This document shows, in pieces, positions 4,688 through 9,977 of a DNA stretch of 11,108 nucleotides; the first letter of the stretch is position 1, and every line of letters starts with the position of its first letter. A program made the position numbers and the translations under genes. Source of the stretch: Anaerolineales bacterium (GTDB lineage Bacteria > Chloroflexota > Anaerolineae > Anaerolineales > VGOW01). The stretch spans positions 4,614 through 15,721 of the forward strand of contig CAKKQG010000291.1 of NCBI GenBank assembly GCA_919901875.1. Reading direction: 5' to 3'. The notes below the pieces were generated by a model. The model had not been told where the DNA came from and did not search any database. It worked only from the letters and a program-made list of their open reading frames with translations.

Positions 4688-4703
4688 TCAGTGATCGATA
4701 ATT

Positions 4704-4707
4704 GAGG
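4704..4707 (+). promoter_or_regulatory. Ribosome binding site selecting the toxin-like gene start
   Basis: GAGG at 4704-4707 lies 8 bases before ATG 4716 but only 2 bases before ATG 4710. It therefore favours the second ATG, giving a product two residues shorter. Confidence 0.6.
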
Positions 4708-4715
4708 AAATGAGT

Positions 4716-5252
4716 ATGCAAAAGTTAATGGGAATGATCGGCGTTTTTATTTTTGCGATCACAACAATGATTATCACCAGCCCATGTGAAATTGCTTTGC
4801 CAACTCTGTTTGGCAAAACAGTGATGTTTGTCAATCCATTTTGCAAAATAGAGACGTTTGCGATCTTTGCACAGCGAGGAAATGCGACTCAAACAACATC
4901 TGCTAAAAGCACAACACAGTCAACGAAAACAAATCAAACGGCAACACCCAAAGCAAAACCAGCAACTGCTCAACCAAGTGTTCGTCCGACAGTCAAATCA
5001 ACAAGCACGCAAACAGTTGTAACACCTCAACCGCCTATTCAACCGGGATACGATTATAATCAACCACCAGAGGGTGATTGGGAGTGGAGAGGTCCAAAGG
5101 ATAGCGGCGCGTGGTATAGCTCAAAAACGAATGAGTATCTTCGCAAAGACGACAAAAATCCAAGCCACGATGCTCATTATGATTGGCGATCACCTGATGG
5201 AAGTTGCTATCGAATTTATCTCGATGGCAGATTGGAGAAAAAAGAATGTTAG
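4716..5252 (+). CDS. Secreted protein with C-terminal domain resembling polymorphic toxin type 37 (Ntox37)
   Basis: A 178-aa product from ATG 4716. The N-terminus is a basic start plus hydrophobic segment (GMIGVFIFAITTMIITS, about 6-22), a signal peptide or anchor. A second less hydrophobic stretch reaches about residue 52. There is no lipobox, because the Cys in TSPC is not in a valid context. A low-complexity Thr/Lys/Pro/Gln linker spans about 55-115. The compact C-terminus (about 116-178) carries PPEGDWEWRG, GAWYSSKT, EYLRKDDKNP, HYDWRSPDG, YRIYLDGRLE. This order of motifs (PPEGWEWRG, G-x-W-x-N-x-K-T-G-E-x-L, DHP, H-W/Y-D-Y/W, RIFPDGR) is what I recall of the polymorphic toxin type 37 domain, a predicted nuclease-type toxin. 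The assignment is from memory and was not searched. The stop overlaps the next gene by 7 bases, the usual toxin then immunity layout. No secretion-system gene is present. It could instead be a harmless secreted protein. Confidence 0.65.
   Translation: MQKLMGMIGVFIFAITTMIITSPCEIALPTLFGKTVMFVNPFCKIETFAIFAQRGNATQTTSAKSTTQSTKTNQTATPKAKPATAQPSVRPTVKSTSTQTVVTPQPPIQPGYDYNQPPEGDWEWRGPKDSGAWYSSKTNEYLRKDDKNPSHDAHYDWRSPDGSCYRIYLDGRLEKKEC
5234..5237 (+). promoter_or_regulatory. Ribosome binding site selecting the start of the candidate immunity gene
   Basis: GGAG sits 8 bases before ATG 5246 and inside the end of the toxin-like gene. It decides against the in-frame ATG at 5204, which lies 42 bases upstream within the toxin domain. 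Confidence 0.7.
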
Positions 5253-5875
5253 AAGAAACTCAACTTGGGGCAGAGTCCTTTAGCTACATCCGATCACAAC
5301 TCGCGCTTGGTAAGACACTGGCAAAAAATATTTTGAAACACCACAGGATCGGATCGGGAAAATCTTTCGCTTACCTTTTACCAGATACTCCTACAACAAA
5401 AGTGATGCAGTTTAATGGTAGTGTATTGGACGGAGAATCTAACTCTTGGCAACCACGCGCTGATTTCGTTGCCCGATTCCTGAAATCCAACAAACGATCT
5501 TTAGTTGTGTTTGAAAATGTATATGCTGTTCCTACTGATACATGGATTCAAAGCAAAGGTGACGGTTTTGAATTCTTCTATTTTCAATCAGAAGTCTATC
5601 TTTTTTTGACCGCCCAAGATCAAATCGTCGAAAAAGTCATCGCAACTGCAAAAATATCTTCAGGGTATCCAAGCATTGGCATTCTGACAACACTTCCCAA
5701 TGAAGTGAAACTAATTCAGAATCACCAAAAAGTTACGGAGGAGTTTTTAGATCAGTTAGCGAAAAACACAGAGCATCTTTTAATCGGGGCTTACGACAAC
5801 GAAACACACATCATTTGGAGTCGTGTCACTGCTCCAGTCATGCGTCATGTCTCAACAGAGAAGGTAATTGCATGA
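5246..5875 (+). CDS. Unknown 209-aa protein in the immunity-gene position
   Basis: I do not recognise this family. The product is soluble-looking: no signal peptide, no membrane segment and no cysteine. It has a helical N-terminus (LGAESFSYIRSQLALGKTLAKN), strand-like middle stretches (RSLVVFENVYAVP, FEFFYFQSEVYLFL), a helix VTEEFLDQLAKN and a final strand HLLIGAYDNETHIIWSR. ATG 5246 overlaps the upstream stop in ATGTTAG, so translation is coupled to the toxin-like gene. This tight downstream overlap, the small cytoplasmic product and lack of family resemblance fit a cognate immunity protein, which is inference from context only. The stop overlaps a further ATG in ATGA (5872-5875). Base composition is A/T-richer than the flanking epimerase and solute-binding genes. 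GSGKS at residues 36-40 is not a real Walker A, since the first glycine is absent. Confidence 0.75.
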   Translation: MLEETQLGAESFSYIRSQLALGKTLAKNILKHHRIGSGKSFAYLLPDTPTTKVMQFNGSVLDGESNSWQPRADFVARFLKSNKRSLVVFENVYAVPTDTWIQSKGDGFEFFYFQSEVYLFLTAQDQIVEKVIATAKISSGYPSIGILTTLPNEVKLIQNHQKVTEEFLDQLAKNTEHLLIGAYDNETHIIWSRVTAPVMRHVSTEKVIA

Positions 5876-5968
5876 CCTCTACGTATCGCTAAACTTCAAA
5901 AAGAAATACAAACTTTCAGCGATGAGATTGAAAAGCTGAAAGTGGAATCAAAGCAAAAGGGTTGTTGA
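5872..5968 (+). pseudogene. Frameshifted mini-gene for a short coiled-coil peptide
   Basis: ATG 5872 overlaps the preceding stop as ATGA, but its frame ends after six codons (TAA 5890-5892). In the +1 frame, open from 5876 to TGA 5966-5968, the DNA reads a clear amphipathic helix. It starts RIAKLQKEIQTF (5882-5917), continues SDEIEKLKVESKQ and ends KGC, with heptad-like spacing of I, L, I, I and L. Loss of one base anywhere in 5876-5889 would give a continuous peptide of about 31 residues. The coil frame is also the frame of the upstream gene, separated from it by a single TGA. It could therefore be a cut-off C-terminus of that protein instead. A sequencing error is possible. GGAG for the next gene lies just after the stop. 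Confidence 0.5.
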
Positions 5969-5980
5969 AGGAGAGACTGT

Positions 5981-6358
5981 ATGGAAGAGAAAAAAGTCAT
6001 CACCGTCGAGATTGCGGAATTAAAAATTGCGACCGATCGTCTCTTTCGGCATTTAGAAGAGAAGGGCTTAAAGAAGGTTGAGTTGTCAGAGGATTTCTAT
6101 TGGCAAATTCCCCAAAAACAACTTTACGATATGAGGCACGAGCCAGCGTCTTTTACCGTGGGGCAACTCTATGACGATTTGAATGAGATACGCAAAACGC
6201 TTGACGGTAAGCATAATCCAATCTCATATCAGTTCGTGTGGTTAGCTTCTATTCTGCGCGCGATAGGCGAGAAGGGTATCTTCTCAATAATTCGGGGTAG
6301 GGGCAAGCCTTGCGCTTGCCCAACGGGGCGACCGCAAGGGTTCGCCCCTACATTTTGA
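5981..6358 (+). CDS. Small unknown protein with a transposon-derived C-terminus
   Basis: The function is not recognised. The start is well supported by GGAG at 5970-5973, 7 bases before ATG 5981. The present product is 125 aa. Residues 1-98 look like one compact acidic helical domain: MEEKKVITVEIAELKIATDR, LFRHLEEKGLKKVEL, DFYWQIPQKQLYD, FTVGQLYDDLNEIRKTLDG, YQFVWLASILRAIGEK. Residues 99-125 are encoded by the miniature element at 6276-6366. They are Gly/Arg/Pro-rich with two Cys and unlike the rest. Removing the element and one copy of the target duplication gives codons GTG ATT TCG TAG after GEK. The predicted ancestor is therefore 101 aa ending GEKVIS. The altered gene may still work, since only three native residues were replaced. 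It is co-directional with the toxin-like pair and ends at a strong terminator, so it is probably the last gene of that transcript. Confidence 0.8.
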   Translation: MEEKKVITVEIAELKIATDRLFRHLEEKGLKKVELSEDFYWQIPQKQLYDMRHEPASFTVGQLYDDLNEIRKTLDGKHNPISYQFVWLASILRAIGEKGIFSIIRGRGKPCACPTGRPQGFAPTF

Positions 6359-6374
6359 GAAGATACCGAGAAGG
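6268..6374. repeat. Target site duplication flanking the miniature element
   Basis: CGAGAAGG occurs at 6268-6275 and again at 6367-6374, directly abutting the inverted-repeat element at 6276-6366. If the outermost G/C pair is assigned to the element instead, the duplication shortens to GAGAAG (6 bp) and the terminal repeats lengthen to 13 bp. Both readings restore the same pre-insertion sequence. Confidence 0.85.
6276..6366. mobile_element. 91-bp miniature inverted-repeat element (MITE-like)
   Basis: Terminal inverted repeats are perfect over 12 bp: GTATCTTCTCAA (6276-6287) and TTGAGAAGATAC (6355-6366). Inside lies a second inverted pair GTAGGGGC/GCCCCTAC (6297-6304 and 6344-6351). It encloses two side hairpins, GGGCAAG/CTTGCCC (6301-6307 and 6315-6321) and GGGGCGA/TCGCCCC (6325-6331 and 6342-6348), so single strands could fold into a branched structure. 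It has no room for a transposase and would need one supplied in trans. A duplication of 6-8 bp fits several DDE transposase families, so the parent insertion sequence cannot be named. It interrupts the 3' end of the gene at 5981 but leaves an open frame through the element. Confidence 0.88.
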
Positions 6375-6389
6375 TGATTTCGTAGAATA

Positions 6390-6421
6390 AAAAACGTCCC
6401 GAACATGTTCGGGACGTTTTT
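6390..6421. terminator. Bidirectional rho-independent terminator
   Basis: A perfect 32-bp palindrome centred at 6405/6406 contains ACGTCCCGAAC and its complement. It is flanked by an A-run on the left and a T-run on the right, so each strand has a GC-rich hairpin followed by U residues. It sits between the convergent ends of the small gene (native stop 6383-6385, present stop 6358) and the solute-binding protein gene (stop at 6424), and can serve both. Confidence 0.92.
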
Positions 6422-8629: not shown

Positions 8630-8656
8630 TTTGGTGATGTCGGGCGGGATTATAGC

Positions 8657-8732
8657 ATAGCGGGTAGCGTATCGCGGATAGCGCATTGCATATCGCTATC
8701 CGCCATTTGCCATCAGCCATTTGCCATCCGCC
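8657..8732. repeat. Degenerate heptamer array with a central hairpin
   Basis: From 8657 the sequence runs in 7-bp steps: ATAGCGG, GTAGCGT, ATCGCGG, ATAGCGC, ATTGCAT. After a one-base slip it reverses polarity into ATCCGCC, ATTTGCC, ATCAGCC, ATTTGCC, ATCCGCC up to 8732, touching the antiporter stop codon (8734-8736). At the switch CGGATAGCG (8675-8683) pairs perfectly with CGCTATCCG (8694-8702) around a 10-base loop. It fills the gap between the antiporter and the secG ribosome site. Confidence 0.8.
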
Positions 8733-8733
8733 A

Positions 8734-9825
8734 TTACGCTGGCAAAAAGAAAAACGCCAACGCCAACATCACGTAGACCACCAACAAGTGCGCGCCTTCG
8801 AGCCAGTTGGTTTCGCCGTCGGTACTGACCAAGGAGGTAATGAACGAGGCAGCGATCACAGCGATCAATTCGAATTGATTAAAGTGCAGAGTGAGATAGG
8901 GCGGCTTGAAGAGTAAGCTGACAAATACCAACATGGGCGCGACGAACAAGGCGATCTGCAAGCTGGAGCCGACAGAAATTTCCACGCTCAAATCCATTTG
9001 ATTCTTCATTGCTACTTGCACGCCGACGATATGTTCGGCGACGTTGCCTACGATGGGGATCAGAACAATGCCCAAGAAGAATTCGGTGATGAAGGGAAAC
9101 TGTTTGACGATGGGCTCAACCGCGCCCACTAATAGTTCACTGAGGAAGACCACGCCCACTGTAGCCAACAACAAAACGATCACCGCTGTGCGAACTGACC
9201 ATAAATGTTTTGCGCCGTGAGCGTGTTCTGCCGAAGGGCGTGTGAGCGGCGTGTCGGAGCTTGATGATCGAAAAGCATAGATCATTCCTAAGGCGTAGAC
9301 GAAGATCATGCAGATCGCCACGCCCATGCTCAGCGCTTCAACGCCGACAGACGTATCGGGACCAATCGCGTCACTAAATAATGAGGGGATAGAAAGTGCC
9401 ACCATCGCCATCAGCAACATCGTGGAATTTTGTCCGGCGCGTACGCGATCAAATTTCTGCGAACCGTTTTTCAGCCCACCTAACAAGAGACTCGCGCCTA
9501 ACACCAAAAGCAGGTTGCCCAAAACTGAGCCGATGATGGACGCTTTGACCAGCTCGGTCAACCCTCGGCTGAGCGCGACAATGGTGATGATCAATTCTGC
9601 GGCGTTACCCAGCGTGGCATTGAGCAAACCGCCGATGCGCGGACCTGTTCGCTCGGCAAGCATCTCAGTGCTTTCGCCAATTAAGCCCGCCAACGGAATC
9701 AGGGCGACACAGGCAAGAAGGAACAGCGTGAGAGGCGGCATGTGGGTGAACTCGCCGATGATCGCTATCGGCGCGGCGATCAACAACCAGTAAAGTTTAT
9801 TCATCCGCAAAATTTTTTGCATCAT
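8734..9825 (-). CDS. cax: Ca2+/H+ (cation/proton) antiporter of the CaCA/CAX family
   Basis: A 363-aa inner-membrane exchanger of the Ca2+:cation antiporter superfamily, expelling Ca2+ or related cations in exchange for protons. About eleven hydrophobic segments are visible. The two family alpha-repeats are clear: GNAAELIITIVALSRG (73-88, Glu77) with SIIGSVLGNLLLVLGASLL, and GNVAEHIVGVQVAMKNQMDL (260-279, Glu264) with SVEISVGSSLQIALFVAP. A His- and Ser-containing acidic loop (about 186-208, SSSSDT to HAHGAKH) separates the halves, as in CAX proteins. The length is typical. The ATG at 9825 is preceded by GAGGAG with 8 bases of spacing, better than the ATG at 9822. The gene diverges from the kinase at 9991, and secG lies downstream on the same strand. 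Confidence 0.94.
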   Translation of the reverse strand: MMQKILRMNKLYWLLIAAPIAIIGEFTHMPPLTLFLLACVALIPLAGLIGESTEMLAERTGPRIGGLLNATLGNAAELIITIVALSRGLTELVKASIIGSVLGNLLLVLGASLLLGGLKNGSQKFDRVRAGQNSTMLLMAMVALSIPSLFSDAIGPDTSVGVEALSMGVAICMIFVYALGMIYAFRSSSSDTPLTRPSAEHAHGAKHLWSVRTAVIVLLLATVGVVFLSELLVGAVEPIVKQFPFITEFFLGIVLIPIVGNVAEHIVGVQVAMKNQMDLSVEISVGSSLQIALFVAPMLVFVSLLFKPPYLTLHFNQFELIAVIAASFITSLVSTDGETNWLEGAHLLVVYVMLALAFFFLPA

Positions 9826-9860
9826 GATTATTTCTCCTCATCAAGTAGTGCGGCGATTAT

Positions 9861-9974
9861 AGCGTATGGCAAATCGCAGATAGCGTATAGCAAATCGCAA
9901 ATAGCGTATAGCAAATCGCAGATAGCGATCCGCCATCTGCCATCCGCCATTCGCTATCCGCCACAAGCCATTCG
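9861..9974. repeat. 21-bp (3 x 7) tandem repeat array with inverted tail
   Basis: Three contiguous 21-bp units lie at 9861-9881, 9882-9902 and 9903-9923. Each is made of three heptamers: AGCGTAT, then AGCAAAT (GGCAAAT in unit 1), then CGCAGAT (CGCAAAT in unit 2). From about 9929 the same kind of heptamers appear in the opposite orientation (CGCCATC, TGCCATC, CGCCATT, CGCTATC) to about 9974. GATAGCG (9921-9927) can pair with CGCTATC (9952-9958). It fills most of the divergent region between the antiporter and the kinase. There are no spacers, so it is not a CRISPR array. Confidence 0.82.
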
Positions 9975-9977
9975 CTA

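Follow-up and report, generated by a model that had tools for sequence, protein, structure and literature searches.

A 91-bp miniature element with the ends of an IS66-like insertion sequence and a new predicted C-terminus in an Anaerolineales genome

The 91-bp element described here is best explained as a type II MITE belonging to an IS66-like element; it was inserted close to the stop codon, on its 5' side, in a small gene and gave the latter a new predicted C-terminus; we put the probability of this reading at about 0.9. The record of a tiny mobile element changing a predicted protein is unusually complete in this case, comprising the insertion scar, an uninterrupted relative of the gene, further copies of the element and an element of full size whose ends match. 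The window, i.e. the whole stretch of 11,108 nucleotides that was analysed, holds the following features at and around the insertion:

5981..6358, plus strand: open reading frame (ORF), a small gene of unknown function, 125 codons, read as 98 ancestral residues followed by a 27-residue element-derived tail
6268..6275, no strand: left copy of the 8-bp target duplication CGAGAAGG, from the sequence and from the 8-bp duplications at other copies
6276..6366, plus strand: the 91-bp MITE, 100% identical over positions 1-91 to a copy in its own genome (G000:C180) and 99% identical to another (C460)
6276..6287, plus strand: left 12-bp terminal inverted repeat GTATCTTCTCAA, agreeing with the insertion sequence (IS) ends to 14 bp
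6297..6351, no strand: inner palindromic repeat GTAGGGGC...GCCCCTAC, with matches elsewhere in the genome that cover about query positions 30-85
6355..6366, minus strand: right 12-bp terminal inverted repeat TTGAGAAGATAC, which the IS ends match over 12 bp and no further
6356..6358, plus strand: new stop codon TGA, within the right terminal repeat
6367..6374, no strand: right copy of the target duplication CGAGAAGG, from the sequence
6374..6385, plus strand: former 3' end of the gene, now displaced: GTG ATT TCG TAG (V-I-S-stop), original frame retained; the relative P0001 ends V-V-S
6390..6421, no strand: perfect palindrome that runs into a series of T, by sequence resembling a terminator, between converging genes; the close relative G003 has a similar palindrome between the two neighbour genes

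Structure of the element and its host gene

The terminal inverted repeats are perfect over 12 bp and the flanking duplication is perfect over 8 bp, and the original prediction of such an element between two copies of CGAGAAGG holds at every base. A perfect 12-bp inverted pair (at most 400 bp apart) together with a perfect 8-bp direct repeat occurs once in the window and in none of 300 dinucleotide-preserving shuffles of it, while the second 12-bp inverted pair of the window lacks a direct repeat and is of a kind found at a mean of 0.36 per shuffle. The G (6275) and C (6367) beside the repeats would also fit a 13-bp repeat with a 6-bp duplication; the boundary was placed at GTATC with an 8-bp duplication because the other copies fix it there. 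The element is short, non-coding and bounded by terminal repeats, as expected for a type II MITE. It has no gene of its own: the forward frames meet stops after 4, 7 and 26 codons and two reverse frames after 5 and 26 codons, the remaining reverse frame being without a stop. No match to the element was found in a phage collection, or to its 22-base right end among viral contigs. The inner palindrome is also dispersed alone (L013, L014, L016, L017, L019, L024, L025 and L027), there without terminal repeats and, by eye, without duplications.

The element starts after base 1 of codon 99 in a 101-codon gene, just before the stop, and the gene thereby enters the third forward frame of the element, which is the one with a stop after 26 codons. 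Translation of the ORF gives GIFSIIRGRGKPCACPTGRPQGFAPTF (27 residues) after the 98 old residues and then the TGA, the first codon of the tail being common to the target duplication and the element. The sequence thus bears out that the gene reads through the element for 27 residues, with the TGA in the right repeat ending the predicted tail. It also confirms the proposed 101-residue ancestor, since removal in silico of the element plus one CGAGAAGG yields ...GEK GTG ATT TCG TAG in 101 codons, exactly the length of the uninterrupted relative. The further claim that the insertion made a new predicted C-terminus without breaking the frame until its own stop is supported, and there is an addition to it. 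The footprint of 91 + 8 = 99 bp (33 codons) is a multiple of three, so the original frame resumes beyond the TGA as GAA GAT ACC GAG AAG GTG ATT TCG TAG.

The uninterrupted relative, P0001, was the one relative obtained in a protein search (4 member sequences, 9 contigs). Compared at the protein level, it keeps the start, has 101 residues and is identical to the window protein at 93 of residues 1-98. Its C-terminus is RAIGEKVVS, one I/V change away from the predicted GEKVIS; the expectation that relatives without the element end near GEKVIS therefore holds for the sole homologue found. Homologues carrying the same tail, which had been named as a possible objection, did not appear: a protein search with residues 84-125 gave one candidate and no protein at E <= 10.

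It is also conceivable that ORF 5981-6358 is not a real gene and that no protein was rewritten. Apart from P0001 there is little to recognise it by: Pfam and NCBIfam profile searches gave no match up to E 0.1, a match was encoded solely by the own genome among 101 genomes (own plus 100 relatives), a scan of genome contigs with P0001 gave no further relative, and P0001 had no hit better than E 0.6 among PDB sequences. In addition, G003 lacks all three orphan ORFs (180, 223 and 125 aa) of the block 4690-6385 at the corresponding place (L252), a 3,980-bp stretch on which the two neighbour genes, for the epimerase (97% identical) and the solute-binding protein (94%), lie tail to tail with a palindrome between them. 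The absence of a gene is nevertheless unlikely, because P0001 retains the start, the predicted length and nearly all residues, the codon score is positive (0.149 per codon), and a Shine-Dalgarno-like GGAGAG lies 5 bases 5' of the ATG. The one relative and the codon score are what suggest that the gene is real.

Further along the window, 8643-8747 and 9859-9977 are arrays of a degenerate 14-bp unit in opposite orientation, and a similar stretch was seen by eye at about L252 175-250 in G003.

Copies of the element and their placement relative to genes

Other copies of the element, whose presence had been proposed as a check, were found in its own genome and in other assemblies, many with 8-bp duplications of their own. 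We collected 109 copies bounded by both repeats in four assemblies (7 in G000, the own genome; 20 in G002; 5 in G003; 77 in Anaerolineae MAG-31), a number which is not a census, as loci were picked via element matches and both repeats were required with at most three mismatches in all. The length is 91 bp in 84 of the 109, and G002 holds a subfamily of 89-90 and 110-111 bp. Target duplications agree at 8/8 bases in 72 copies and at 7/8 in 17, hence at 7-8/8 in 89, with 6/8 or fewer in the other 20 (3 of the 7 own-genome copies, the other 4 being perfect). No two of the 109 copies have a flank in common, and duplication of the target at several independent sites is as expected for a type II MITE. 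The pairing of repeats at L122 (116 bp), counted among the 109, is probably accidental and the copy there truncated.

At E <= 1e-6, the element was matched in 4 of 61 genomes (own plus 60 relatives), all four in its own genus; G001, of the same genus, gave no element match in this search, and the matches listed for G004 are restricted to the inner palindrome. In a collection of species genomes, the exact 22-base right end was present in 83 stretches, of which 75 are from Anaerolineae MAG-31 (JACIWR01), 6 from JACRLA01, and 1 each from JANTHP01 and JAJRVO01. Examination of 80 of these stretches gave 79 paired short elements (91 bp in 74, a 7-8/8 duplication in 69). The own assembly (2.63 Mb, 484 contigs, 63.7% complete) has more copies at contig ends, and contigs L006, L010, L011 and L012 begin at or inside a copy; since several contigs start in this way, the element seems to break the assembly and its copy number is probably underestimated.

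Some copies depart from the common form. The one at about L009 1501-1575 keeps the left terminal repeat (one mismatch), ends at the CCCCTAC of the palindrome and is flanked on both sides by TTTTTTCC, which is explained either by a one-ended insertion or by loss of an end after insertion. At L226 3229-3422 and L261 1326-1519, a 91-bp copy (7/8 duplication) lies beside or inside a larger repeat that has the same terminal repeat at its end and another GC-rich palindrome inside, and L263 and L264 have similar ends with other insides. The element ends thus seem to carry several unrelated palindromes.

The 89 copies with a 7-8/8 duplication gave ten gene-side cases with an insertion before the stop, the window among them. 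Two others, both in MAG-31, affect genes recognised by Pfam. At L228, a gene of the 2-oxoacid:ferredoxin oxidoreductase type goes from 511 to 516 codons (IIGELG to IIGEYLLNNLG), and at L199 a CbiQ-type gene goes from 272 to 269 codons with a new end, these lengths being partial since the gene runs off the locus start at its 5' side. L265 closely resembles the window case, having the frame and the 27-residue tail in common with it, but was dropped, since it runs antisense to a methyltransferase-like ORF and lacks a Pfam match; L205, also without one, was dropped as well. L051, L070, L115, L210 and L214, with codon scores of 0.075-0.1, were left out of the count of altered genes.

As to placement, 12 of 67 MAG-31 copies lie in predicted coding sequence, 40 are intergenic and 15 are at locus edges, against 82.4% coding for random positions in the same loci (gene calls by a simple codon-score caller). 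Insertions in coding sequence thus look mostly selected against. The intergenic copies have a median distance of 133 bp to the nearest gene 3' end, compared with 154 bp for random intergenic places.

These data bear on a possible function of the tail or the hairpin, for instance as an added stretch of protein or as a structure at the 3' end of the mRNA that alters its stability. A use of this sort would fit the strong hairpin where the coding region ends (z = -9.0 for 6268-6375 folded as DNA, against 200 shuffles), the frame open for 27 codons, and the two other genes altered at their 3' ends. We regard it as improbable all the same, given that the copy looks recent, that a long tail is not a surprising outcome when three of the six element frames read at least 26 codons, and that copies are so much rarer in predicted genes than random positions are. 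In a structure model built from two sequences (mean pLDDT 40.7), the confidence for the tail is too low to judge it. We infer that translation of the gene takes place and that its tail is tolerated without being of use, and the altered 3' ends look like outcomes that selection lets pass and not like the product of a programme.

It is tempting to speculate that the 91-bp form owes its spread to a footprint that preserves the frame (91 + 8 = 99 bp); the element would then be tuned so that an insertion close to a gene end does no more than swap the C-terminus, and would be a recurrent supplier of new protein ends in this group of bacteria. One forward and one reverse frame of the element do give tails of 26-27 codons, and another reverse frame has no stop. 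We find this very unlikely, however, as a single founder accounts for the constant length equally well, G002 has forms of 90 and 111 bp that do not preserve the frame, and the copies are not clearly nearer to gene 3' ends than random intergenic positions are.

Relationship to an IS66-like insertion sequence

An insertion sequence of full size with matching ends, as called for by the original prediction, was found in Anaerolineae MAG-31 and not in the element's own assembly. It is a 1,866-bp IS66-like element (L268 260-2125) with the ends GTATCTTCTCAATATT and GTATCTTCTCAATAGG, both starting GTATCTTCTCAATA, and is flanked twice by the 8-bp duplication AGTGACAT. A single open frame of 556 codons occupies 123-1790 of the 1,866 bp. 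The encoded transposase scores 49.2 bits with PF03050, above the cut-off of 23.1, and 119.8 bits with NCBIfam NF033517, under the equivalog cut-off of 180, for which reason the element is named IS66-like. Each IS end matches the left end of the MITE over 14 bp and the right end of the MITE over 12 bp; over 28 bp, the left end of the MITE and the right end of the IS agree at 24 positions, and the right end of the MITE agrees strictly over the 12 bp and at 19-20 of 28 in all. Only the ends are thus common to the two, as in type II MITEs. The interiors differ, the MITE having nothing of the 556-codon frame and a palindromic repeat instead.

Members of the IS66 family produce an 8-bp target duplication and have ends beginning with GTA, and classical members carry the accessory genes tnpA and tnpB upstream. 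The MAG-31 element shows the first two traits (GTATC, AGTGACAT), and its transposase frame leaves no room for the accessory genes; single-ORF IS66 elements are presumably the subgroup ISBst12. Among plasmids, 217 records are relatives of the transposase, all below 60% identity. Five were fetched, and four of them (Nostoc C052, Nostoc UHCC 0870, Dolichospermum and Allochromatium, 32-54% identity) have GTAnC..CTCA-type ends with perfect 8-bp duplications, the left ends being GTATCCGCTCA, GTATCGGCTCAATAA, GTATCGGCTCAATAA and GTAACTTCTCAATAA, while no ends were found for the fifth, from a Rhizobium plasmid. Judged from these sequences, the ends look like a trait of this transposase lineage. A search of six genomes for IS66 transposases gave nine stretches, two of them within the one 556-codon frame of MAG-31; there was none in the own assembly, which is 63.7% complete, or in G003, and the match in G002 is 29% identical to the MAG-31 transposase.

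The partner families covered were PF01609, PF00872 and PF01610 and then IS66, which was tried last because the ends begin with GTA and the duplication is 8 bp. The 12-base end was searched with one mismatch in G000-G004 (and also exactly in G003 and G004), and in 38 regions around chosen matches, among the matches listed, end pairs 40-5,000 bp apart delimited short elements only. Transposase loci of PF01609 (21), PF00872 (1) and PF01610 (9) were rejected as partners as they had no such ends, many of the loci being cut by contig ends; the same end search did work on an ISL3 element in L160 (16-bp repeats, 8-bp duplication). A pattern meant to skip the usual copies had six matches in MAG-31, namely variant copies (L260, L265), element ends with other GC-rich palindromes (L261, L263, L264) and a chance-like match (L262), and it missed the IS itself because the IS has G at the same place.

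On the preferred reading, the IS transposase, supplied in trans, would recognise the GTATCTTCTCAA ends. A staggered 8-bp cut across codons 96-99 of the 101-codon gene, followed by repair, would duplicate CGAGAAGG, and the left end would enter in the forward frame that is open over most of the element. Translation would then add 27 residues and end at the TGA in the right repeat, replacing V-I-S. The likeness of the ends points to the IS66-like transposase lineage as the probable mover of the window copy.

Alternatively, the element could be a REP-type (GTAG) palindrome moved by a RAYT or IS200-like tyrosine transposase and not an IS-end MITE. The inner GTAGGGGC...GCCCCTAC repeat is indeed found alone many times, and GTAG-tagged repeats are reported from Chloroflexi (PMC3733652), but the unit is bounded by 12-bp inverted repeats and 8-bp duplications (perfect in 72 of 109 copies) and an IS66-like element has the same ends, which makes such an origin highly improbable. 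Least credible is that the element came first, the 125-residue form being ancestral, and that the P0001 lineage lost it by precise excision: with two gene forms only, polarity is unreadable from a tree, but the duplication is an insertion scar, the tail is transposon sequence, and the complete identity of the window copy to another own-genome copy suggests recent arrival.

The insertion reading connects a strongly amplified Anaerolineae MITE family with an IS66-like transposase lineage that also occurs in cyanobacteria, and mobilisation in trans is directly testable.

Comparison with known systems

The kind of event described here is already known from Rickettsia palindromic elements and from QMITE2 and enhC of Coxiella, and the window case leaves what is known in principle unchanged. 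Type II MITEs have only the end repeats in common with an IS, according to the review PMC10969869. The same review describes Rickettsia palindromic elements, which form in-frame fusions and resemble our element as short palindromic repeats read in frame inside genes; they differ in being about 150 bp long and in that nearly half of 44 reported R. conorii copies are in genes. Most copies of the present element, in contrast, avoid predicted genes, and the element is not read through as an internal insertion, since the TGA in its right repeat ends the protein.

GTAG-tagged REPs, as described in PMC3733652, are likewise GTAG-edged GC-rich palindromes and also occur in Chloroflexi. They are 20-40 bp long and linked to tyrosine transposases, and only the inner part of the 91-bp element is similar to them.

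A parallel in outcome is EnhC of Coxiella burnetii, in which, according to PMC5896051, the 33 C-terminal residues presumably derive from QMITE2. In both cases a MITE at the 3' end of a gene provides the C-terminus, of 33 residues there and 27 here. QMITE2 is larger (150-190 bp) and has direct repeats of 7-11 nt. Its copy is present in both Coxiella strains, where the joining of gene and element depends on an indel, whereas in the window the insertion itself joins them.
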